64,000 nt of DNA from Methylobacterium sp. (GCA_002928875.1 PERO01000019.1:1-64000), one strand, 5' to 3'. Shown: positions 13,639-30,469, counted from the first letter of the stretch. A program made the numbers and translations. Notes: generated by a model not told the origin, from the sequence alone.

Positions 13639-14430
13639 TCAGCCGCGGAACAGGTTGGAGGTCGCCTGAAGCATCTGGTCCGCCCCGGTGATGACCTTGG
13701 AATTCAGCTCGTAGGCGCGCTGCGCCTGGATCATCGCGGCGATCTCGGTCACCGCGTTGACGTTCGATTCCTCGAGGTAACCCTGCTGGAGGTTGCCGAA
13801 GCCCTCCGCACCCGGCGTGCCATCCACGGGGGCGCCGGAACCCGGCGTCTCGAGATAGAGGTTGTCGCCGATCGATTCGAGGCCGACCTTGTTGATGAAG
13901 CGCGTCATCGTGAACTGGCCGAGCGCCTGCGGCTGCACCTGCCCCGGCACGGTCGCGGTGACCTGGCCGAGCTGGTTGACCGACACGCTCGTCGCATCGG
14001 CCGGGATCGTGATGCCGGGATCGACGAGATAGCCGTCCTTGGTGGTCAGCCGGCCCTGGCTGTCGGTCTCGAAGCCGCCGTCGCGGGTATAGGCGATGCG
14101 GCCATCGGGCAGCTGGATGCGGAAGAAACCCTCGCCGCGGATCGCCATGTCATAGGTGCGTTCCGTGTTGGTGACGTTGCCCTGGCTCATGATGCGGGGC
14201 GTGGCGACGGTTTTCACGCCCGAACCCACGAACAGGCCGGCCGGCGCCTGGGTGTTCTGGTCCGAGGTGGGCGCGCCCGAGCGACGCTGATGTTCGTAGA
14301 GCAGATCCTGGAAATGGATGGTCTGCCGCTTGAACCCCGTCGTGCGCATGTTCGCGACGTTGTTCGAGATGACTTCAACGCTTTTTTCCTGCGCCATCAT
14401 GCCGGTGGCAGCGGTGTAGAGAGCACGCAT
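13639..14430 (-). CDS. flgG: Flagellar basal-body rod protein FlgG
   Basis: 'MRALYTAATGMMAQEKSVEVISNNVANMRTTGFKRQ'; C-term 'AMIQAQRAYELNSKVI'. Confidence 0.96.
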   Translation of the reverse strand: MRALYTAATGMMAQEKSVEVISNNVANMRTTGFKRQTIHFQDLLYEHQRRSGAPTSDQNTQAPAGLFVGSGVKTVATPRIMSQGNVTNTERTYDMAIRGEGFFRIQLPDGRIAYTRDGGFETDSQGRLTTKDGYLVDPGITIPADATSVSVNQLGQVTATVPGQVQPQALGQFTMTRFINKVGLESIGDNLYLETPGSGAPVDGTPGAEGFGNLQQGYLEESNVNAVTEIAAMIQAQRAYELNSKVITGADQMLQATSNLFRG

Positions 14431-14454
14431 GGGACTGGCCTTTCAGGTTCAGGT

Positions 14455-15195
14455 TCAGATCGGCTCGCCGAGCCGCTGGATCGCGGTACGGCGGGTTTCG
14501 TCGGTGCGGGACATCAGGCTCGCGACGTTCTGGTAGGCACGATTGACTTCGATCATCCGGCTGATCTCGACGACCGGCTGGACATTGGAGCGCTCGACAT
14601 AGCCGGCCTGGACGCGGGCCTGGGTGACCGGCTCGGCCTGCTGGCGCGTGGTGAAGAGGTTGGCGCCCACATTCTCGAGGGCCTGCGGATTGCCGAAACG
14701 CACGACGCGCAGCCGGCCCCGCGTGCCGTTGTTGGTGCCGACCGTGCCGTCGCCGGCGATGCTGATCGGGCCATCCTGCTGCGTGAACTGGAAGGCACCC
14801 TGCTCGCCCTGCAGCGCGTAGCCGTCGGAATTGACGAGCTCGCCATTGGCGTTGAGCATCAGGGCGCCGTTGCGGGTGTAGCGCTCGCCCTGCGGCGTCT
14901 GCACGACGAAGAAACCCTCGCCAGTGATGGCGACGTCGAGCGGGTTGCCGGTCGGCTCCAGCTTGCCGCCGGAAAGGTCCAGCGGCGTGCCCCGGTCGAC
15001 AACGAAGGATACGCGACGATCGTCCCCGCGGCGAAAGCTGTCCGCGCTGGCGACCGGCATCTGGAACTCGCGCGAGGTCGAGATCCGACGCTTGAAACCA
15101 TTCGTGTTGGCGTTCGCGACATTGTTCGCGATGACGTCCATTTCACGCCTCAACGCCGTCTGGCGCGAAAGCGCGATGAGAAGCACGTTCTCCAT
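14455..15195 (-). CDS. flgF: Flagellar basal-body rod protein FlgF
   Basis: Rod protein N-term 'REMDVIANNVANANTNGFKRR', FlgF-like C-term 'EISRMIEVNRAYQNVASL'. Confidence 0.93.
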   Translation of the reverse strand: MENVLLIALSRQTALRREMDVIANNVANANTNGFKRRISTSREFQMPVASADSFRRGDDRRVSFVVDRGTPLDLSGGKLEPTGNPLDVAITGEGFFVVQTPQGERYTRNGALMLNANGELVNSDGYALQGEQGAFQFTQQDGPISIAGDGTVGTNNGTRGRLRVVRFGNPQALENVGANLFTTRQQAEPVTQARVQAGYVERSNVQPVVEISRMIEVNRAYQNVASLMSRTDETRRTAIQRLGEPI

Positions 15196-15423
15196 GCCCC
15201 ATCTCCTCGGTTTTGCGTGTCGCCGATCTCTCGCTCCCCAGCGCAGATCATTGACGCTGCAGTAACCAAACCAAGGATCGTGCCAAAGGCCGTTTCCGAT
15301 AAAATCCGAATAAAAACAGGATGATGAATTTATCGCCGTCTTGAGGCGGCTCGGTCATGGATTGCCTGTCGGCAGAAATGATCAGGCAAAATTTGCCGGT
15401 TTGGCCGAAAAAGAAATCCTTCG

Positions 15424-15431
15424 TTAACCAT
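15424..15431 (+). promoter_or_regulatory. Candidate CtrA half-site TTAACCAT upstream of fliL
   Basis: GAAA-N7-TTAACCAT; only the second half is a strong match. Confidence 0.35.
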
Positions 15432-15557
15432 GCTCCCCCAAGTTCGGGATCAAGGCGCTGCGCTCCGCGCCGGGCGATTCCGGGAGAACCCGGCCAAGTC
15501 CGTCGCAGAGCGGGAAGCAAGGACAAATCCGGGATATTCCGGTTTCAGGGTGATGCG

Positions 15558-16061
15558 ATGGCTGCGAACACCGCAACGAAGGGTGAAGACATTCCCGAAG
15601 AGGGCAAGGCTGCCGCTTCGGGCGGCAAGAAGAAGCTCATCATGATTTCCGTTGCTGCGGCCCTGCTGGCTGCCGGCGCCGGTGGCGGCTATTACTTCTG
15701 GCAGCGCTCCAAGGCGGCGGAAGCCGAGAAGACCGCGCAGCTGAAGAAGAAGGCCTTCTTCTTCGATCTGCCGGAAATCACCGTGAACCTTGCGGCCGCG
15801 CCCGGCCAGGAGCGCCCGGCCTATCTGCGCCTGAAGCTGGCGCTCGAGGTCGAGGATCAGAAGATCATCGCCGAGATCCAGCCGCTGATGCCGCGCGTGA
15901 TCGACAATTTCCAGATCTTCCTGCGTGAACTGCGCCCGACCGATCTCGAGGGTTCGGCGGGTCTCTACCGCCTGAAGGAAGAGCTGGTGCGCCGCGTGAA
16001 CGCGTCGGTCTACCCCGCGCGCATCGAGGCGATCCTGTTCCGGGACGTGCTGGTGCAGTGA
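15558..16061 (+). CDS. fliL: Flagellar basal body-associated protein FliL
   Basis: N-terminal TM; 'FFDLPEITVNLAA...YLRLKLALEVED...PRVIDNFQIFLRELRPTDLEGSAGLYRLKEELVRRVN'. Confidence 0.93.
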   Translation: MAANTATKGEDIPEEGKAAASGGKKKLIMISVAAALLAAGAGGGYYFWQRSKAAEAEKTAQLKKKAFFFDLPEITVNLAAAPGQERPAYLRLKLALEVEDQKIIAEIQPLMPRVIDNFQIFLRELRPTDLEGSAGLYRLKEELVRRVNASVYPARIEAILFRDVLVQ

Positions 16062-16113: not shown

Positions 16114-17259
16114 GTGGCTGATACCCCGGACAATTCCCAGGACGATCTTGCCGACGAATGGGCCCGCGCGCTCGGCGAGGCCGGCGTCGAGGATGCCGAT
16201 ACCGGCGGCGCGCCGAAGCCGAAGGAGCCGGGGCTGGACCTCGATCTCGGCACCGGGCTCTTCCTCGACCAGGAAGAAGTGGACACGATCTTCGGTTTCG
16301 ACCCCGAGGATGCCGACCAATCCAAGCAGAACGGCGTGCGCGCGATCGTCGATTCGACGGTCGTCTCCTACGAGCGCCTGCCGATGCTCGAAATCGTGTT
16401 CGACCGTCTGGTCCGCACGCTCACGACCACCCTGCGCTCGTTCTTCTCGGACAACGTCGAAGTCAGCCTCGATGACGTGACGAGCGTGCGCTTCGGCGAT
16501 TACGTCTCCTCGCTGCCGCTGCCGACCATCCTCGCGGTGTTCAAGGCGGAGCCCTGGGAGAATTACGGCCTCATCACCATCGACAGCGACCTGATCTATC
16601 TCGTGATGGACGTGCTGCTCGGTGGCCGGCGCGGCCTCTCGAATTTCCGCATCGAGGGCCGGCCCTACACCACGGTCGAGGTGAACCTGGTTCGCCGCCT
16701 GCTGGATCTCGTGCTGGGCGAGGCCGAGCAGGCCTTCCAGCCGCTCTCGCCGGTGAAGTTCATCCCGGAGCGCATCGAGACCAACCCGCGCTTCGCCTCC
16801 ATCACGCGGCCCGCCAATGCGGCGATCCTCATCGCGCTCGCCATCGACCTCGAAGGGCGCGGCGGGCGGGTGGAAATCCTGCTGCCCTATGCCACGATCG
16901 AGCCGATCCGCGAGTTGCTGCTGCAGTCCTATATGGGCGAGAAGCTCGGCCGCGACCACATCTGGGAAGGCCATCTCGCCTCCGAGATCTGGCAGGCGAC
17001 GCTCGATCTCGATGCCGTGCTGCACGAAACCAGCATGCCGGTCTCGAAGGTGCTCGAATTGCAGGTCGGCGACACGCTCGTCTTCGACGTGCGCGGCGAC
17101 CCGATGGTCACGGTCCGCTGCGGCGACCTCATGGTGACGCAGGGGAAGATCGGGCGCATCGGCGATCATATGGCGATCCAGATCGCGAAGCCCCTCAGAC
17201 GGTCAAGAACGACACTCGCAGCCTTCGAACAAGGCGTCTCAGTCAGGCGCGACAGGTGA
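16114..17259 (+). CDS. fliM: Flagellar motor switch protein FliM
   Basis: 'MLEIVFDRLVRTLTTTLRSF...VYLVMDVLLGG-like...LPYATIEPIRELLLQ'. Confidence 0.94.
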   Translation: MADTPDNSQDDLADEWARALGEAGVEDADTGGAPKPKEPGLDLDLGTGLFLDQEEVDTIFGFDPEDADQSKQNGVRAIVDSTVVSYERLPMLEIVFDRLVRTLTTTLRSFFSDNVEVSLDDVTSVRFGDYVSSLPLPTILAVFKAEPWENYGLITIDSDLIYLVMDVLLGGRRGLSNFRIEGRPYTTVEVNLVRRLLDLVLGEAEQAFQPLSPVKFIPERIETNPRFASITRPANAAILIALAIDLEGRGGRVEILLPYATIEPIRELLLQSYMGEKLGRDHIWEGHLASEIWQATLDLDAVLHETSMPVSKVLELQVGDTLVFDVRGDPMVTVRCGDLMVTQGKIGRIGDHMAIQIAKPLRRSRTTLAAFEQGVSVRRDR

Positions 17260-17263
17260 ATCC

Positions 17264-17758
17264 ATGTCCGGACAACTCGGTTTGATCATTGAAATCATTG
17301 TCGGCGGCCTTCTCGCCGTGACCATCGGTTATTGCATCCTGCTGGATCGTCGCCTGCGCGCGGTCCGCGCCGACGAGGCGGTGATGCGCAAGACCATCAT
17401 GGAGCTTTCCATCGCGACCGATCGCGCCGAGCGCGCGATCGATGCGCTGAAGCACACGCTCGGCGATTGCGACCGCACCCTCGGCGAACGCCTGCGGGTG
17501 GCCGAGCGCTACGCGTCGGACCTCGAGGACCAGATCCGCTCGGGTGACGATGTGCTGAACCGCATCAGCCGCATCGTCTCCACCGCGCTCGACAGCCCGG
17601 TGGTAGAAGGTGCGACCGACCCGGCCGAGGCCTTCTCCCAGCATGTCATCCGCACGCAGCCGGCCATCCGCTCGGCCTCCCGCATCTCCCAGACGCTTGC
17701 CGCTGCGCAGGCCCTGGCGACCCGCGGCGCCGAGAAGAAGCGGGAAAACGTGGCATGA
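17264..17758 (+). CDS. DUF6468-like flagellar-cluster protein (single TM, coiled coil)
   Basis: N-terminal TM, then a helical segment; immediately after fliM and overlapping the next gene start. Confidence 0.7.
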   Translation: MSGQLGLIIEIIVGGLLAVTIGYCILLDRRLRAVRADEAVMRKTIMELSIATDRAERAIDALKHTLGDCDRTLGERLRVAERYASDLEDQIRSGDDVLNRISRIVSTALDSPVVEGATDPAEAFSQHVIRTQPAIRSASRISQTLAAAQALATRGAEKKRENVA

Positions 17759-18594
17759 CCCGCATCCGGCTGATCCCTGTCCTGATCTTCGGGCTGGTCT
17801 CGCTGCTGACCATCCGGGTTCTGTCGATCGCGCTCGACAATCGCCCGCTGCCGCAGCTCTCGGACCTCGGACCGGCCGCGGGTGACCGTTTCGCCCGTTC
17901 CATCGAACGCGCCCGGCTCGGCCAGCAGGCCGACAGCCAGATCATCACCGGCTCGACCGGCAACGCGGACGCCACCAAGGCCGCCGACGCCAAGGCCCCC
18001 GATGCGAAATCGCCTGCCGTGGCCCAGGCCCCGGCCCAGCAGGGCGAAGCCAAGGTGCCGGCGATCAAGCCCGAGCCCGAAGGCACCCGCCTGCCGCCGC
18101 CCCCGGCCCAGATGCCGGAACGCGGCCAGGTCGCGAGCCCGGCGGAGCGCGATCTCCTCGAGCGCCTCAAGGACCGTCGCACCGAGATCGAGGCCCGCAA
18201 TCGCGAACTCGAGATGCGCGACAGCCTGCTGCGCACCACCGAGCGCAAGCTCGACGAGAAGATCGGCCAGCTCCGCACGCTTGAAGGCCAGTTCGACGCC
18301 AACCAGGCCGCCAAGAACGACCCCAAGCAGCGCTTCAAGCCGCTGGTGACGATGTACGAGACGATGAAGCCGAAGGAGGCCGCGCGGGTTTTCGACCGGC
18401 TCGACATCAAGGTGCTGATGGATCTCGTGCAGCAGATGAATCCGCGCAAAGTGGCCGAAATCCTCGCCGCGATGGAACCCGCGGCGGCCGAACGGCTCAC
18501 GGTGGCGCTGGCCCGGCAGGCGCAGAACGTCTCCGAGGCGACGGTGCCGGCGGCCGATGGCGAGTTGCCGCGGCTCACGCCGCCGGCGCGCTGA
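17755..18594 (+). CDS. MotE-family flagellar protein (MgtE intracellular N-like domain)
   Basis: 'MYETMKPKEAARVFDRLDIKVLMDLVQQMNPRKVAEILAAMEPAAAERLTVAL'. Confidence 0.8.
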   Translation: MTRIRLIPVLIFGLVSLLTIRVLSIALDNRPLPQLSDLGPAAGDRFARSIERARLGQQADSQIITGSTGNADATKAADAKAPDAKSPAVAQAPAQQGEAKVPAIKPEPEGTRLPPPPAQMPERGQVASPAERDLLERLKDRRTEIEARNRELEMRDSLLRTTERKLDEKIGQLRTLEGQFDANQAAKNDPKQRFKPLVTMYETMKPKEAARVFDRLDIKVLMDLVQQMNPRKVAEILAAMEPAAAERLTVALARQAQNVSEATVPAADGELPRLTPPAR

Positions 18595-18717: not shown

Positions 18718-21700
18718 GTGTTGCGTTCGCGTTTTTCCAAACTGTTCGCCCGTGTGGCGGGCCTCGTGCTGATTCCCCTCGCGGTCCAGAGCCAGTCGCT
18801 CGCGGCCAGCGGGCAGGTGAGCGGCTCCGAGCAGCAGGGCTACGGCCGGCTGGTCTTCACGTTTGATGCGCCGGTGGGCGCCAAGGTGCGCGCCGTCAAC
18901 TCGGTGCTCATCGTCGAATTCGACGACAGTGTCGTTCTCAATCCCGACAAGCTGCCGATGGAAGTGCCGAATTATATCGGCATCGCCCGGCTCGACCCCG
19001 ATGGGCGTTCGGTGCGCATCGGCCTCAATGGTCGCTTCCGGCATGATCTGAAGACCGCCGGCGAGCGGGTGTTCCTCGATCTCATGGGACCGCGCTGGCA
19101 GGGCTTGCCGCCGCCCATGCCGCAGGACGTGATCGACGAACTCGTGCGCCGCGCCCGCGTCGCGGAAGAGCGCGCCAAGCGCGTCGAGGCCGAGAAGAAG
19201 GTCGATCGCGCGATGGAATTGCGCGTGGCGCATGCGGCCCGGTTCCGCCGCGCGATCTTCACCATGCCGCGCTCCGCCCCGATCGCCTATGACGAACGCG
19301 ACGGCGACGTGACGCTCATCTTCGAAGGCGATTTCGAACTGCCCGAGGCGCTGGCCCGCTCGCGCCTCGCCGGTTCGGTGGAGAATGTCCGCGTGACCAA
19401 GGAGCCGAACCGGCTGCAGGTCAACATGAAGGTCGCCGAGGGCATGAAGGTGCGCGGCTTCCGCGAGGATGACAGCTTCACCATCGACATCTCGCGCCTC
19501 GATGGCCGCCCGCTTTCCGAGGGCCTGAGCGAACCGCCGCCCGCGCCGCCGGCCGTCGTGGCCCCGCCTGTCGCCCAGGCGCCCCAGCCGCCGGCCCCGG
19601 CCCCCGCCGCGCCAGAGGCCGCGCCGCTGCCCTCCGCCGCCACCTTGCCCCGGCAGGCTGCGGCACCGGAGCCGGTGCGGCCCGAAACGCTGTTGCCCGT
19701 GACAAGCGGCGATGCCATCGATTTCCGGATCGAGAGCGGTCGCGACCCGCAGGGTTTCGCCTTGCGCCTCGCCGGGCTCGGCAAGGCGCCGGTCGCGATC
19801 TTGCAGCGCGGACCCACATTGCTCGTGGTCGTCGAGACGCCGCAGACGCCGGGCATTCCGACCGTTCCGCCCGACATGAAGGGCCAGGTCGATGGCGTGC
19901 AGCTGTCGCGCCTTGCCCAGGCCACCGTGCTGCGCCTGACGCCCAAGGTGGAAGGCCAGTTCTGGCTTACGCGCGATGGCGGTGATCTCATCGTGCAGCG
20001 CGGCAAGAGCGAAGGCACGCCCGAGGCCTTCGCCGGACAGCCGATCCGGCTGCAGCGCGGTTTCGATCCGCAGGGCCGCGATGCCATCGAGGCGCTGTTT
20101 GGCGGCGAAGGCCGTCTCGTCACCATCGAGGACCCGCAGACCGGCGGCAAGCTCGCGATCGTGCCGGTTTCGGGGAGCGCCTTCGCCAGTCCCAAGGCGC
20201 AGAGCTTCGCCGAGGTGCTGATCGAGCGCACGCTGGCGGGCTTCGCCGCCCTGCCGCTCGACGAGGCCGTGACGGTGGCGCGCAAGGAAAACGGCGTGCT
20301 GCTGAGCCACGAGATCCGGCTCAACCTGTCCTCGCTGCCGGCGCCCGAACCGGCCGGCGCCCGCGATCGCAAGTCGCTGCTGATCGAGCCCGATCAATAC
20401 GAGAAGCTCGCCAAGGAGCCGCTGCGGCTTCTGGAGCGCAGCCTTCTGCGCGCGGCATCCGAAGCCCCGCGCATCACGCGACCCCAGGCGCGGCTGCGGC
20501 TGGCGCAGGCCTATCTCGCGCACAAGGCCTATCCGGAGGCGGAAGGCGTGCTCGATGTGCTGGCGGCGGATGATCCCGAGGCGGGTGCGCAGAAGAACGT
20601 GATTTTCGCCCGCGCGCTTGCGGCCACCATGATGGGCCGGATGGTGGAGGCCACGCGCTTCCTCAACGAGCCGCAACTCGCGCAGGAGCCCGAGCAGCGG
20701 CTGCTTCAGGCCATGGTGGATGCGAAAGCATTGCGTTATCCGCAGGCCGTCAGCGGCTTCAAGGCCGGAGCCGAGGCGCTCGATCGCTACCCGGATCGCC
20801 TGCAGGGCGATCTGCGCCGCTATGCGATCGAGGCGGCGATCGAGGCCGGCGATCAGGTCTTCGCGCGCGAGCAGCTGAATGCCTATGACCGGATCGACTC
20901 AGCATTCCGCGATACCGCCTTGCTGCAATTGATGGCCGGTCGTCTCGCCGAGATCGAGGGCCGCATGCCGGATGCCTTCTCGGCCTACAGCCTCGCGGCG
21001 CATTCGCCCGACCGGCGGGTCGAGGCCGAGGCGCGCTACGGCCGGGCGACGGCCGGGCTCGCCGCCCAGAAGATGACGCCGGACGAGGCCAAGGCCGAGT
21101 TCGAAACCCTGACCGCGATCTGGCGGCGCAGCGAGACCGAGGTCAAGTCGCTGGCGCGTCTCGGTGAAATCTATGCGCAGGAGGGCCGTTGGCGCGAGGC
21201 GTTCCTCGCCTCCCAGCGCGCGACCGGGCTGATGCCGAATCACCCGATCACCCGCCGGCTCGAGGAGGCGATGGGTCGCCGGTTCGAAAGCCTCTTCCTC
21301 GATTCGGAGCAGCAGAAGATCTCCAAGGTCGAGGCGCTGGCGATCTATCAGGAATTCCGCACGCTGGTGCCGCCGGGCCGGCGCGGCGACGAGATCGCCC
21401 GTCGCCTCGCGGATCGCCTGTTCGATCTCGATCTCGTCAACGAGGCCGCCGAGATTCTCGAGCATCAGGTGAAGAACCGCCTCGAGGGCGTGGCCCGGTC
21501 GGTCGTCGCCACGCGCCTCGCCGTGATGCATGTCCAGAACCGCCAGCCCGTAAAGGCGCTGACGGTGCTGAGCGAGACCCGTCTCGCGAGCCTGCCGCCG
21601 GAACTGAAGCGGGCGCGGACGCTGCTGGAGGCCCGGGCCCTCGGCGAAGTGTTCCGCACGGCGCTCGCCATCGAGGTTCTCGCCAACGAGACGGGCAACG

Positions 21701-22146
21701 ATGTCGAACGCCTGCGCGCCGACATCCAGTGGAAAGGCAAGGCCTGGCGCGAGGCCGGGGAAGCCTATGAGCGCGTGCTGGGCGATGCCTGGCAGGGCGA
21801 TGTCGCTCTCACCGATCAGCAGCGCCTCGATGTTTTGCGCGCCGGGCTCGCCTATGTGCTGGCGGAGGAAGCCATGTCGCTCGACCGGCTGCGCTCCAAA
21901 TACATGCCGAAAATGGCGAAATCGCCCGATGCCGGTGCCTTCAACATGATCGCGCTGGAGAATTACTCCAACCCGAGCGGTTTCCGCGAGGTGGCGCGTC
22001 AGGTGGTGAACGCCGACACGCTGACCGAATTCCTGGCCTCGTATCGCCGGCGCTATCCCGAGGCGGCGGGCGAGGCGCGGCCGGTGCGCAGCGCCGGCGA
22101 CCAGCGCCAGTCCGCGCTGCCGCAGGCCAATGCCGGGCCGGGCTGA
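18718..22146 (+). CDS. Large secreted protein: AMIN-like beta domains, Pro-rich linker, TPR superhelix (1142 aa)
   Basis: GTG start, signal peptide; 'GYGRLVFTFDAPVGAKVRAVNSVLIVEFDDSV' AMIN-like; TPR-like helices in the C-terminal half ('RLAQAYLAHKAYPEAEGVLDVLAADDPEAG', 'RLGEIYAQEGRWREAFLASQRATGLMPNHP'). Confidence 0.8.
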   Translation: MLRSRFSKLFARVAGLVLIPLAVQSQSLAASGQVSGSEQQGYGRLVFTFDAPVGAKVRAVNSVLIVEFDDSVVLNPDKLPMEVPNYIGIARLDPDGRSVRIGLNGRFRHDLKTAGERVFLDLMGPRWQGLPPPMPQDVIDELVRRARVAEERAKRVEAEKKVDRAMELRVAHAARFRRAIFTMPRSAPIAYDERDGDVTLIFEGDFELPEALARSRLAGSVENVRVTKEPNRLQVNMKVAEGMKVRGFREDDSFTIDISRLDGRPLSEGLSEPPPAPPAVVAPPVAQAPQPPAPAPAAPEAAPLPSAATLPRQAAAPEPVRPETLLPVTSGDAIDFRIESGRDPQGFALRLAGLGKAPVAILQRGPTLLVVVETPQTPGIPTVPPDMKGQVDGVQLSRLAQATVLRLTPKVEGQFWLTRDGGDLIVQRGKSEGTPEAFAGQPIRLQRGFDPQGRDAIEALFGGEGRLVTIEDPQTGGKLAIVPVSGSAFASPKAQSFAEVLIERTLAGFAALPLDEAVTVARKENGVLLSHEIRLNLSSLPAPEPAGARDRKSLLIEPDQYEKLAKEPLRLLERSLLRAASEAPRITRPQARLRLAQAYLAHKAYPEAEGVLDVLAADDPEAGAQKNVIFARALAATMMGRMVEATRFLNEPQLAQEPEQRLLQAMVDAKALRYPQAVSGFKAGAEALDRYPDRLQGDLRRYAIEAAIEAGDQVFAREQLNAYDRIDSAFRDTALLQLMAGRLAEIEGRMPDAFSAYSLAAHSPDRRVEAEARYGRATAGLAAQKMTPDEAKAEFETLTAIWRRSETEVKSLARLGEIYAQEGRWREAFLASQRATGLMPNHPITRRLEEAMGRRFESLFLDSEQQKISKVEALAIYQEFRTLVPPGRRGDEIARRLADRLFDLDLVNEAAEILEHQVKNRLEGVARSVVATRLAVMHVQNRQPVKALTVLSETRLASLPPELKRARTLLEARALGEVFRTALAIEVLANETGNDVERLRADIQWKGKAWREAGEAYERVLGDAWQGDVALTDQQRLDVLRAGLAYVLAEEAMSLDRLRSKYMPKMAKSPDAGAFNMIALENYSNPSGFREVARQVVNADTLTEFLASYRRRYPEAAGEARPVRSAGDQRQSALPQANAGPG

Positions 22147-22161
22147 GGACAGGGTGGCGGG

Positions 22162-22968
22162 CTAAAGCGGGCCGAAACTCTGCACGAGTGAACCCGCCAC
22201 GAGCCGCCACCCGTCGACCAGCACGAAGAAGATAAGCTTGAACGGCAAGGCGACCGTCACCGGCGGCACCATCATCATGCCCATCGAAATCAGGATGGAC
22301 GAGACCACGAGGTCGATGATGAGGAACGGGATGAACAGCAGGAAGCCGATCTCGAAGGCGCGCCGCAATTCCGAGATCATGAAGGCCGGAACCAGCACCT
22401 GAAGCGGCATCGCCTCGGGCGTCGCCGGCGGCGGCTGGCGCGACAGATCGAGAAACAATTCAAGGTCGGCCGTGCGCACATGCTTCATCATGAAGGCGCG
22501 GAACGGCGCGGAGGTGCGCTCGAACGCCTCTGCCTCGCGGATCTGCCCGGCGAGGAAGGGCTGCAGGCCCTGCTCATAGGCCTGCTGGAAGACGGGGGCC
22601 ATGATGAAGGCGGTCAGGAACAGCGCGAGGCCGGTCATCACCGTGTTGGGCGGCGCGGTCTGCGTGCCGATGGCCGAGCGCAGCAGCGACAGGACCACGA
22701 CGATCCGGGTGAACGAGGTCACCATGATCAGGATCGACGGCGCCAGACTGAGGATGGTCAGCAGCGCGACGAGCTGCAACGCACGCTCCGTCAACCCCAG
22801 GCCCTGCCCGAAATTGATCGAGATATCCTGCGCATAGGCACCGGTGGCGAGCGCTGCGCCGAAGAGCCCGAGCAGCGCGGCGGCGTAGCACGGCCGGGTC
22901 CGGATGACATCCGGCCGGGACGGGGGTTGGGGCGTGGTGCGCGCGATCTGCGAAGCCGGTTCCGACAT
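22162..22968 (-). CDS. fliP: Flagellar type III export protein FliP
   Basis: 'TILSLAPSILIMVTSFTRIVVVLSLLRSAIGTQTAPPNTVMTGLALFLTAFIMAPVF...FLLFIPFLIIDLVVSSILISMGMMMVPP'. Confidence 0.97.
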   Translation of the reverse strand: MSEPASQIARTTPQPPSRPDVIRTRPCYAAALLGLFGAALATGAYAQDISINFGQGLGLTERALQLVALLTILSLAPSILIMVTSFTRIVVVLSLLRSAIGTQTAPPNTVMTGLALFLTAFIMAPVFQQAYEQGLQPFLAGQIREAEAFERTSAPFRAFMMKHVRTADLELFLDLSRQPPPATPEAMPLQVLVPAFMISELRRAFEIGFLLFIPFLIIDLVVSSILISMGMMMVPPVTVALPFKLIFFVLVDGWRLVAGSLVQSFGPL

Positions 22969-23072: not shown

Positions 23073-24158
23073 TCACGGCTTGGGCGGCGTGCCGGGGCGG
23101 CCGAGGAGCTTCGCCATCTCTTCCTCCAGCAGGTCCATTTCCGCTTCCGTCGGCGGTTTCGATGGCGGCGGGGGCGGGGCGGGCGCGGCCTGTGGCTCGC
23201 CGGCGATCTCGGCGGGAAGGGGCTTGGGCGACGCGATGGATGCGCGCGGCCCCGGCGGAACGATGGGTTTCTGCAGCACCTCCGAGAGGCGGCGCGCCAT
23301 CTCGCTCATCGGCTCCTGCCGGGTGGTTTCCGGGCGCGCAGGCTCAGGCCGCGGGGCGGGAGGGGGCGGCGGAGGCGGTTGCGGCACCGGCTGCAGGATC
23401 GGCGGCGCGGGGGCGACGGGCGGGGGCGCCATCACAGGCGGGGCCATCACAGGCGGCGCCATGACCGGTGGAGCCATGACCGGAGGGGCCACCACAGGCT
23501 GGGTCATGACAGGCGGCGGGGGCGGCGGTGGCGGCGGGGCCACGGCGCGGGGCTGCGGCTGCGCGGGCTGTTCCATCGCCTTCAGGGCGCGTTCGAAATC
23601 ATCCTCGAACCGGGCAGCGGCCATCGGCTGCGCGGGCGGCGCGGCGATTGTGGGCGCCTGGGGAGGCTGAGGGGCAGGGCGGGGCGCGGGCGCCACCATC
23701 GGGGCGGGCGGCGCGACCGGACGCTGCGGAGCGGGTGCCGGCGCCGGCGCCGGGATGTTCGGCTGCAGCGCGATGGCCGGCTTGGCCGGCTCGACCGGCT
23801 CGACGAGGGGTTCGCCCTCGGCGCGGCCGCGCATGCCCCGCTCGCCCCGGACGATGCCCTGCTCGATGAGCACGTCGTTCGTGCCACCGATGAGCAGCAG
23901 ATGCTCGACATTGTCGCGCCGGATGATGACGAGCTTGCGGCCCTCGCGATCGAGCGGGAAGGCGTCGGTGACGGCCAGCCGCTGCACGCGCCCACCGCGC
24001 GCGGTATTGCTCGACATGTTGAGCGCCGGCCGCAGCGCACGGATGAGCCACAGCGCGATCGCGATCACGACGATCAGCAGGAGCAGCCCGAGGCCGATCC
24101 ACAGCATCGCGGAAACCGCGCTATCGCCGGATGTCAGCTTGTCGATTAGAGCTTGCAT
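23073..24158 (-). CDS. fliO: FliO-like flagellar protein with long Pro-rich C-terminus
   Basis: TM, then 'RVQRLAVTDAFPLDREGRKLVIIRRDNVEHLLLIGGTNDVLIEQGI' FliO core; adjacent to fliP. Confidence 0.85.
   Translation of the reverse strand: MQALIDKLTSGDSAVSAMLWIGLGLLLLIVVIAIALWLIRALRPALNMSSNTARGGRVQRLAVTDAFPLDREGRKLVIIRRDNVEHLLLIGGTNDVLIEQGIVRGERGMRGRAEGEPLVEPVEPAKPAIALQPNIPAPAPAPAPQRPVAPPAPMVAPAPRPAPQPPQAPTIAAPPAQPMAAARFEDDFERALKAMEQPAQPQPRAVAPPPPPPPPPVMTQPVVAPPVMAPPVMAPPVMAPPVMAPPPVAPAPPILQPVPQPPPPPPPAPRPEPARPETTRQEPMSEMARRLSEVLQKPIVPPGPRASIASPKPLPAEIAGEPQAAPAPPPPPSKPPTEAEMDLLEEEMAKLLGRPGTPPKP
23424..23516. repeat. Tandem 15-bp-unit repeats encoding (PPVMA/P)n in fliO
   Basis: Consecutive ggcgccatcacaggc/ggagccatgaccggt-type units coding 'APPVMAPPVMAPPVMAPPVMAPP'. 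Confidence 0.75.
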
Positions 24159-27877: not shown

Positions 27878-30469
27878 ATGTTGAAGGAGAGCCCGGCCGG
27901 CCCGCCCATCGATCGCAGCCAGCGCCATGGCAGTCCCGTGCTGCTGCTGCTCGTGACCCTCGTCGTCGTGGGATCGGTGCTGTCGCTGGCGATCCTCGAA
28001 GAGCGTCACCACGCCACGGTGCTCACGCTGTTCCTGGCCGGCTTTGCGGCACTCGGGGTGCTCGCGGCGTTCCTCTATGCGGTGGGCATCCTGCAATTCG
28101 CCGGTCGCGCCTCGCGCAACGACATCACGAAGGCGATCGTGGATGGCGCGGAGGACGGCCAGCTGGTGCTCGATCGCGAGGGCAAGGTGCTCTACGCGAA
28201 TGCCTCCTATCAGGCGTTCTGTGGCGGCGTGCCGGGCCGGGCGGCCAGCATCCGCCCCGTGGAACGGCTGTTTTCGGGCGGGTCCGACGTCAGCGAGGCG
28301 ATCTACCGGCTGGCGCAGGCCGCCCGCGAGGGGCGCGGCGCGACCGAGATCATCCGCCTCGTTCCCGCTCTGGCCGGTGGCGGCCCCTATGGCTGGTACC
28401 GGGTGCGGGTGCGCCCGCTCTCGCGCGCCGAGGGCGACACGGCCGTGCATTGGCGCGTGACCGACATCACCCGCGACCGCGAGAAGCACGAGAACGAATT
28501 CCAGGAATTGCAGCAGGCGATCTCGTATCTCGACAGCGCGCCGGCCGGCTTCTTCTCCGCCCGGCCCGAGGGCCGGATCCTCTACATCAACGCCACGCTG
28601 GCGGACTGGCTCGATTACGACCTCGCCGAGATTGCCGACCGCGACCTCGAGATCCGTGAAATCGTCGCATCGGGCGGCGAGGCCCTGCTCGCGCATGTGC
28701 AGGGGCAGCCGGGCGCGGTGCGCACCGAGACCATCGATCTCGACCTGAAGCGCAAGGGCGGCCAGCGCCTGCCGGTGCGCCTGCTGCATCGCGTGGCCTT
28801 CGCCGCCGACGGCACGGCCGGCGTGTCGCGCACGCTGGTTCTCAACCGTTCGGCCGAAGCCGGCGGAGCGGAGGGGCTGCGCGATGCGGAAGTGCGCTTT
28901 GCCCGGCTGTTCAACACCTCGCCCTTCGCCATCGCGACGCTGAGCCGCTCGGGCGGGATCGAGACCACCAATGCGCGCTTCGCTGGCTTCCTGCCCGGCC
29001 CGCAGGCCGCCGGCCCGCGCGACCTGATGAGCCTGATCGCGCCGGCCGATCGCCCGCGCATCGAGGCGGCCTTCGCCACGGCGCGGGACGGGGCGGGCGA
29101 GAGCGAACCCGTCGATGTGGCGCTGTCCGGCGAGGCCGGCCGCTCCGCGCGCTTCTTCTTCGTGCCATCGGGCGCGAGCGAGCGCAGCGACGAGGCCGTG
29201 ATCGCCTATGCGCTGGAAACGACAGATGAAAAGAAGCTGCAGGAGCAGCTGTTCCAATCCATGAAGATGAACGCCGTCGGCCAGCTCGCCGGCGGTGTCG
29301 CGCATGATTTCAACAACCATCTGCAGGCGATCGTGGGCTTCGCGGACCTGCTGGCCGGAAATTTCCGCGCCACCGATCCGCGGCATCAGGACGTGATGCA
29401 GATCAAGAATTCCGCAAACCGTGCGAAAAGCCTCGTGCGGCAATTGCTGGCCTTTTCACGACAGCAGACCCTGCTGCCGGAAACCATCGATCTCGGTGAT
29501 CGGCTCGGCGATCTCAACGCGATGCTGAAACGCTCCATCGGCCCCAATGTCGAACTCGACATCCGCCATGGCCGCGACCTCTGGCCCACCTTTGCCGACC
29601 CTGCTTCCTTCGACAACATGATCATAAACCTCGCGGTGAATGCCCGCGATGCCATGCCGGAGGGCGGCCGCCTCACCATTCGCACGGCGAATGTGCCGGC
29701 GGCGGATACGGACGAATACGATGTCGAGGGGTTGAAGCGCGGCGATTATGTCGTCGTCGACGTGGCCGATACCGGCACCGGCATGTCGCCCGAAGTCCGG
29801 CGCAAGATCTTCGAACCGTTCTTCACGACCAAGGAAGTGGGGCGCGGCACCGGGCTCGGCCTCTCCTCGGTCTATGGCTTCGTCACCCAGTCGAATGGCT
29901 CGATCGATTGCGTGAGCGAACTGGGCAAGGGCACGACCTTCCGGATTTTCCTCCCCCGCCACGTGCCGCGCGCCGGCGACCTGCTGCCCGCCGGGGATGA
30001 CACGCCGTCCGCGAGCGAGATGCCGGGCGAGGCCCCGGCCGGCGGCGAAGCCGGCACGCCGGTGGCGCAGGCCGAAAAGCCGCCCATTGCGGATCTGACC
30101 GGAACCGGCACCATCCTGCTCGTCGAGGATGAGGATGCCGTGCGCAATTTCGGCGCCAGGGCCCTTCGTTCGCGCGGCTACACCGTGATCGAAGCGCAAT
30201 CCGGCGTCGATGCCTTGCACCAGCTCGAAACCCATGCCATCGCGGATATCGACCTCGTCGTCTCCGATGTCGTGATGCCGGAAATGGATGGTCCCTCGCT
30301 TCTGCGCGAATTGCGCGCGCGCAAGCCGGAAATCCGGGTGATCTTCGTTTCGGGCTATGCGGAGGAAGCCTTCCGCAAGAACCTGCCCGAGGGCCAGCAA
30401 TTCGATTTCCTGCCGAAACCGTTCAGTCTCAAGCAGTTGATCGAGGCCGTGAAGCGGGTGATGAGCTGA
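27878..30469 (+). CDS. cckA: Hybrid sensor histidine kinase, CckA-like
   Basis: Two TMs, PAS regions, H-box '[25 protein letters not shown]', HATPase '[11 protein letters not shown]', C-terminal receiver; downstream of flhB. Confidence 0.85.

Follow-up and report, generated by a model that had tools for sequence, protein, structure and literature searches.

An E-ring with TPR spokes has been proposed as an ancestral part of the flagellar motor that was lost in the E. coli model. Both Feng et al. and a review from 2026 proposed that MotE is the same protein as FlgY, the subunit of this ring, and that it has TPR partners of related structure in MotK, CC_2058, MotC, FlcB, and PflA (PMC11870540, PMC13023049). 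In Cereibacter sphaeroides, MotK was described in 2024 as a periplasmic protein with MotE and MotB2 as binding partners; filaments form without it, but rotation requires it, and CC_2058 was named as its distant counterpart (PMC10954123). CC_2058 of Caulobacter had been found independently in 2021 as FssB, and a strain with a deletion of fssB makes filaments but is non-motile and fails in stator signalling (PMC7885107). According to the 2026 review, there is no cryo-ET of motors with MotE and MotK (PMC13023049).

Here we analyzed a locus of Methylobacterium sp. on a DNA stretch of 64,000 nucleotides (GCA_002928875.1, PERO01000019.1:1-64000), which is referred to as the window; its features are listed in Table 1. 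The initial annotation had seen in one of the genes a secreted AMIN-like/TPR protein and, by analogy with PflA/PflB, a candidate periplasmic scaffold related to the stators. Based on architecture, gene position, and lineage, with Q3IY86 and Q9A6M9 compared by description, we assign this protein to the MotK/FssB type; it is very probably a periplasmic flagellar motor protein that links the cell wall to the motor for stator function. The architecture, the position after motE, the co-occurrence with FliM, and the published MotK and FssB phenotypes all support the analogy, and a scaffold role is likely, with a geometry that we infer. What did not hold was the idea of an under-described component, as counterparts (MotK and FssB/CC_2058) were characterized between 2021 and 2026. 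The window protein adds a new and larger member to a kind of motor part that was described only recently.

Table 1. Features of the locus; positions are counted from the first nucleotide of the window, and residues are those of the motK-type protein.
Feature	Position	Strand	Basis
fliL	15357..16061	+	Pfam FliL, E 2e-18
fliM	16114..17259	+	Pfam FliM, 1.5e-59; NCBIfam fliM over cut-off
DUF6468 protein	17264..17758	+	Pfam DUF6468, 4.8e-24
motE (E-ring subunit, FlgY/FlbB type)	17755..18594	+	MgtE_N, 5.8e-6, over cut-off; FlbB, 9.8e-7, below cut-off
motK-type gene	18718..22146	+	1142 aa, GTG start; full-length homologues
Signal peptide, residues 1-28	18718..18801	+	sequence inspection; also present in homologues
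AMIN-like domain 1, residues 29-125	18802..19092	+	model, PilQ/AmiC fold matches, hhalign to both other AMIN-like domains
AMIN-like domain 2, residues 178-264	19249..19509	+	model, fold matches, hhalign
Pro/Ala linker, residues 265-326	19510..19695	+	58% P+A
AMIN-like domain 3, residues 333-432	19714..20013	+	hhalign to domains 1 and 2
Conserved non-AMIN region, residues 440-545	20035..20352	+	unlike AMIN domains; conserved across homologues
TPR solenoid, residues 552-1125	20371..22092	+	Pfam TPR in most homologues; all-helical model
Most conserved block, residues 876-1070	21343..21927	+	column entropy, invariant columns
fliP, convergent with the motK-type gene	22162..22968	-	Pfam FliP, 6e-82
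Probable divergent, long fliO	23073..24158	-	weak FliO match (TIGR03500, E 2.9e-4); 361 aa
Kinase gene, possibly cckA	27878..30469	+	PAS-PAS-HisKA-HATPase-receiver

The 1142-residue open reading frame is real. Its G+C content at the three codon positions (74/47/86%) has the pattern usual for coding sequence in GC-rich genomes, and the frame is common to full-length homologues of 1100 to 1300 residues that share 28 to 83% identity. Fourteen other genomes of the same genus keep it over its whole length (56 to 83% identity), and in further families the identity is about 30%. The host genome is 3.24 Mb, and its nearest named relative among the genomes searched is a Beijerinckiaceae MAG; a contig scan with the single protein as the query gave one locus, in a Beijerinckiaceae MAG, with 78% identity.

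On inspection, the protein starts with an apparent Sec signal peptide, which is also found at the start of the homologues. Residues 29 to 268, modeled from a two-sequence alignment with a mean pLDDT of 73 (mostly 70 to 87 in the first domain), fold as two beta domains with a helix between them. When this model was compared with the PDB, PilQ of the type IV pilus machine was the only match with an E value of ≤0.001, and AmiC and other PilQ AMIN structures came next in the ranking with a probability of 1.00. The two AMIN-like regions noted in the initial annotation are both present, but a third one follows the linker. In hhalign comparisons, domain 1 matched domain 2 (P 1.7e-10) and domain 3 (P 1.2e-6), and domain 2 matched domain 3 (P 1.4e-9), whereas residues 440 to 545, which served as an internal control, gave no profile-profile match to the AMIN-like domains (P 0.14 or worse). 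This mutual homology indicates that there are three AMIN-like domains and not two. The linker that separates the second from the third consists of 58% Pro plus Ala, compared to 21% for the whole protein.

No Pfam domain is above the cut-off in the window protein itself. Among 24 homologues, Pfam AMIN-like was found in 12, AMIN in 4, and TPR_2 in 17, and TPR families match the helical half of the homologues strongly but that of the window protein weakly. The model of residues 327 to 1125, also from a two-sequence alignment, is all-helical in the TPR solenoid (residues 552 to 1125) and poor overall (pLDDT 47), with residues 622 to 796 mostly at 70 to 89. Its top PDB match is 9hmf_K, a chain of the Campylobacter periplasmic motor scaffold (E 1.4e-4), with a TM score of only 0.17, a large rmsd, and the low pLDDT just given, so that we take it as a hint; other TPR proteins, including NlpI, come after it among the fold matches of this low-confidence model. 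With TPR repeats in the homologues and an all-helical model, the helical-repeat C-terminal half that had been described is confirmed. In the alignment of the homologues, column entropy shows that conservation peaks at residues 876 to 1070 and in the first AMIN region; the former block is a candidate docking surface for MotE and MotB.

Pfam and NCBIfam matches confirmed the reported gene position, after fliL-fliM-DUF6468-motE and before a convergent fliP. The gene for the FlgY-type E-ring protein is thus co-encoded with the motK-type gene and lies directly upstream. In its product, a membrane segment at the N terminus is followed by a charged helical stretch and then by a C terminus like MgtE_N, and this layout is the signature that has been used to find E-ring proteins (PMC13023049). 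The DUF6468 gene probably corresponds to the pflI position of the published order fliL-pflI-motE-motA-motK; a literature search of limited scope returned nothing relevant on DUF6468/PflI. The probable fliO lies upstream of fliP on the same strand. CckA, as which the kinase may possibly be identified, controls flagellar genes in relatives, and a similar kinase gene is present directly 3' of motK at locus L089 (12829-15420). An additional open reading frame at 14290-15324(+) was rejected as a gene of the fliL operon, being a shadow frame opposite a rod gene of the flgE/F/G family at 14455-15195(-).

The distribution of MotK was determined in 61 genomes of near relatives and in a class-wide sample of 240 genomes of Alphaproteobacteria from 202 genera. 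A clear homologue is present in 35 of the 61 near relatives, and DUF6468 is over the cut-off in the same 35. This set coincides with that of the near relatives whose FliM scores high, save two incomplete genomes, G010 without MotK and G018 without FliM; near relatives with only a divergent FliM (up to 116 bits) have neither MotK nor DUF6468. Class-wide, MotK homologues were found in 131 genomes: 123 have both MotK and FliM, 8 only MotK, 10 only FliM, and 99 neither, and the Fisher p value of 3e-45 (n=240) overstates the case, as related genomes are not independent, although the sample spans 202 genera. The co-occurrence with flagella expected from the initial annotation is thus found, and orthologues are not widespread in relatives without flagella, since 99 of the 107 genomes without FliM also lack MotK. 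A high-scoring or fragmentary FliM occurs in 123 genomes, of which only G105 and G117 are without a MotK match. The contig of G105 stops just after motE, and in G117 motE is followed by a MotK with TPR repeats only, which was overlooked by the class search. Seven of the eight genomes with only MotK were inspected (G275 was left out), and all seven loci are on short or fragmented contigs; motE adjoins in G183, G158, and G106, and fliP in G281.

Several other observations concern location. In G036, motK is retained more than 2 Mb away from fliM (C1:2238654 and 4599802), and the two genes are also apart in G035 (C1:714968 and 701481). A match in G025 (E 3.5e-4) covers only residues 734 to 843, without DUF6468, and was treated as generic TPR noise. 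Plasmid records gave only one weak, unannotated MotK match. Locus L156, on a 1.25-Mb conjugative plasmid of Sphingobium sp. V4 (NZ_CP081002.1, 1225430-1230662), carries fliL-fliM-motE-motK with a short MotK (open reading frame of 711 residues).

This distribution bears on whether the protein could be a general envelope protein, a TPR protein of the YbgF or NlpI kind with a housekeeping function at the peptidoglycan or outer membrane, that is merely located among flagellar genes. There is a weak YbgF match in the TPR part, NlpI and similar TPR envelope proteins are among the fold matches, and AMIN domains occur in amidases too. However, MotK tracks FliM and DUF6468 across the class, it is kept in G036 where its gene is unlinked from fliM, and mutants of the Caulobacter counterpart are paralyzed (PMC7885107). 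We consider such a housekeeping function very improbable.

In the 20 class-wide loci opened first, fliL-fliM-DUF6468-motE...motK lie on one strand in every case (with fliL off the contig in one), and fliP is convergent at many of them. The number of AMIN domains varies from 0 to 3 and the length of the protein varies too, while the TPR core is constant, and TPR-core matches persist in all variants. At L075, L149, and L150 the protein starts at AMIN 2, and L091 apparently has an extra AMIN-like region. The relative in G117 (L089, 10685-12772), directly after motE, has no AMIN domain at all; this protein of about 594 residues consists of a signal peptide and TPR repeats and matches the TPR half of MotK with an hhalign probability of 99.6%. 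Because a few members are without AMIN domains, anchoring to peptidoglycan cannot be essential everywhere.

The most plausible mechanism for the window protein as a MotK-type scaffold is the following. After export by Sec, the AMIN-like domains on either side of the linker, two N-terminal and one C-terminal to it, would grip peptidoglycan, and the flexible Pro/Ala linker would give reach. The TPR solenoid, most conserved at residues 876 to 1070, would bind the MotE ring that surrounds the MS ring as well as the periplasmic part of MotB. As a spoke or anchor, the protein may in this way recruit stators, hold them in place, or keep them open. The location and the interaction steps were shown for MotK only and are carried over to the window protein by analogy; binding to the wall, the docking face, and the geometry of the spoke are proposed.

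A different arrangement of genes is found in other lineages, where at 21 loci two tandem genes for MotB-like membrane proteins lie between motE and motK, directly 5' of motK (L065, 6532-7895; L070, 7674-9132(-); L074, 7827-9340; L077, 7307-8730; L079, 7865-9381; L083, 8714-10152(-); and 15 more loci). The ion-binding Asp of MotB is present in the second member of every pair (21 of 21) and absent from the first member in 20 of 21. The pair is sometimes preceded by cheY/cheZ-like genes. In the complete pair-bearing genomes that were checked, MotA_N is over the cut-off once per genome and a canonical motB is located elsewhere, usually beside motA, indicating that no separate MotA goes with the pair. 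The genome of the window does not have the pair, and no description of it (orphan MotB) was found in the literature searched, which was limited in scope. One could speculate that in many Alphaproteobacteria the Asp-less and the Asp-bearing MotB-like protein are dedicated partners of the MotK spoke, without MotA, and could form an asymmetric, possibly non-conducting, stator-like wall anchor, and that the window lineage lost the pair and compensated with a wall-binding MotK with three AMIN domains, but we regard this as unlikely.

The MotB-like genes next to motK are also what would be expected if MotK were a stator activator or a stabilizer of MotE that binds MotB and opens its plug, without a fixed place in the motor. 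MotK needs MotA2/MotB2 for its localization and is itself needed for MotE to be stable (PMC10954123), and motility of a mutant in fssA, a related stator factor, is rescued by plug mutations in MotB (PMC7885107). On the other hand, the size of the protein, its long solenoid, and its AMIN anchors suit a structural element, and the proposed homologues PflA and FlcB are visible as scaffold parts (PMC11870540, PMC13023049). We take the activator function as a serious rival, though not a likely one, and prefer the scaffold.

In more than half of the Alphaproteobacteria sampled, the MotK family is retained along with MotE, which makes the MotK type the common form in this class and not a peculiarity of Cereibacter or Caulobacter. 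Its TPR core is the constant part and its AMIN domains, 0 to 3, are the variable part. The distribution points to tractable species in which it can be asked how stators are held, and for stator evolution the MotB-like pair found beside motK in many lineages offers a lead that can be tested.

Of the known systems, MotC of Sinorhizobium meliloti raises the question of whether the window protein could be an orthologue of this rhizobial motility protein that was enlarged by AMIN domains. MotC resembles it in being a periplasmic partner of MotE that is rich in TPR-like helices (PMC13023049), but has about 430 residues and no AMIN domain, and its gene follows motB in another flagellar system. The window protein lacks this gene position, with the single motA-motB of the host genome on contig C1 and the motK-type gene on C4. 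In an hhalign comparison, the profile of MotC from five relatives matched the TPR half of MotK with a probability of 1.7%, showing no sequence relation, and MotC was rejected as a sequence relative of the MotK family; common descent of the two would therefore have to be argued from structure. The divergent-FliM system, carried by members of the window's own family (L132, L133, L134, L135, and L136), has the rhizobial order motB-motC at five loci (G034, G025, G021, G019, and G036), with a FliK-like gene next where this was read, and G036 carries both this system and that of MotK. The idea of an enlarged MotC is thus improbable.

PflA of Campylobacter and Helicobacter is a periplasmic protein with AMIN and TPR domains that binds the FlgY E-ring (PMC11870540, PMC13023049) but shows no detectable sequence similarity to the window protein. 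A segment like that of PflB, which has a transmembrane segment plus an antiparallel beta pair inside the TPR fold, was not noticed in the sequence of the window protein by eye, and cage proteins such as FcpM/N/O and PflD have been reported from Campylobacterota only. FlcB of Borrelia burgdorferi, a component of the spirochaete collar, has TPR repeats and binds FlbB, which is the counterpart of MotE (PMC13023049). Closer to the window protein is FssB/CC_2058 of Caulobacter crescentus, which is secreted, has an AMIN-like N terminus and TPR repeats, and is encoded directly 3' of the MotE homologue CC_2059, with mutants that have filaments and do not rotate them (PMC7885107, PMC13023049). MotK of the Cereibacter sphaeroides Fla2 system (RSWS8N_12065, Q3IY86) likewise has a signal peptide, an N-terminal AMIN-like fold, a Pro-rich disordered linker, and a TPR-like C terminus, and its gene comes after motE in the fliL operon (PMC10954123). 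It has 652 residues and one AMIN domain, whereas the window protein has 1142 residues and three, and in Cereibacter motA is located between motE and motK, whereas in the window motE is directly upstream and motA-motB are elsewhere. In every feature tested, that is, the signal peptide, the AMIN-like N terminus, the TPR C terminus, and the gene adjoining motE, the window protein fits MotK/FssB, and what it adds to the known systems is the domain count, the distribution across the class, the gene context, and the MotB-like pair.
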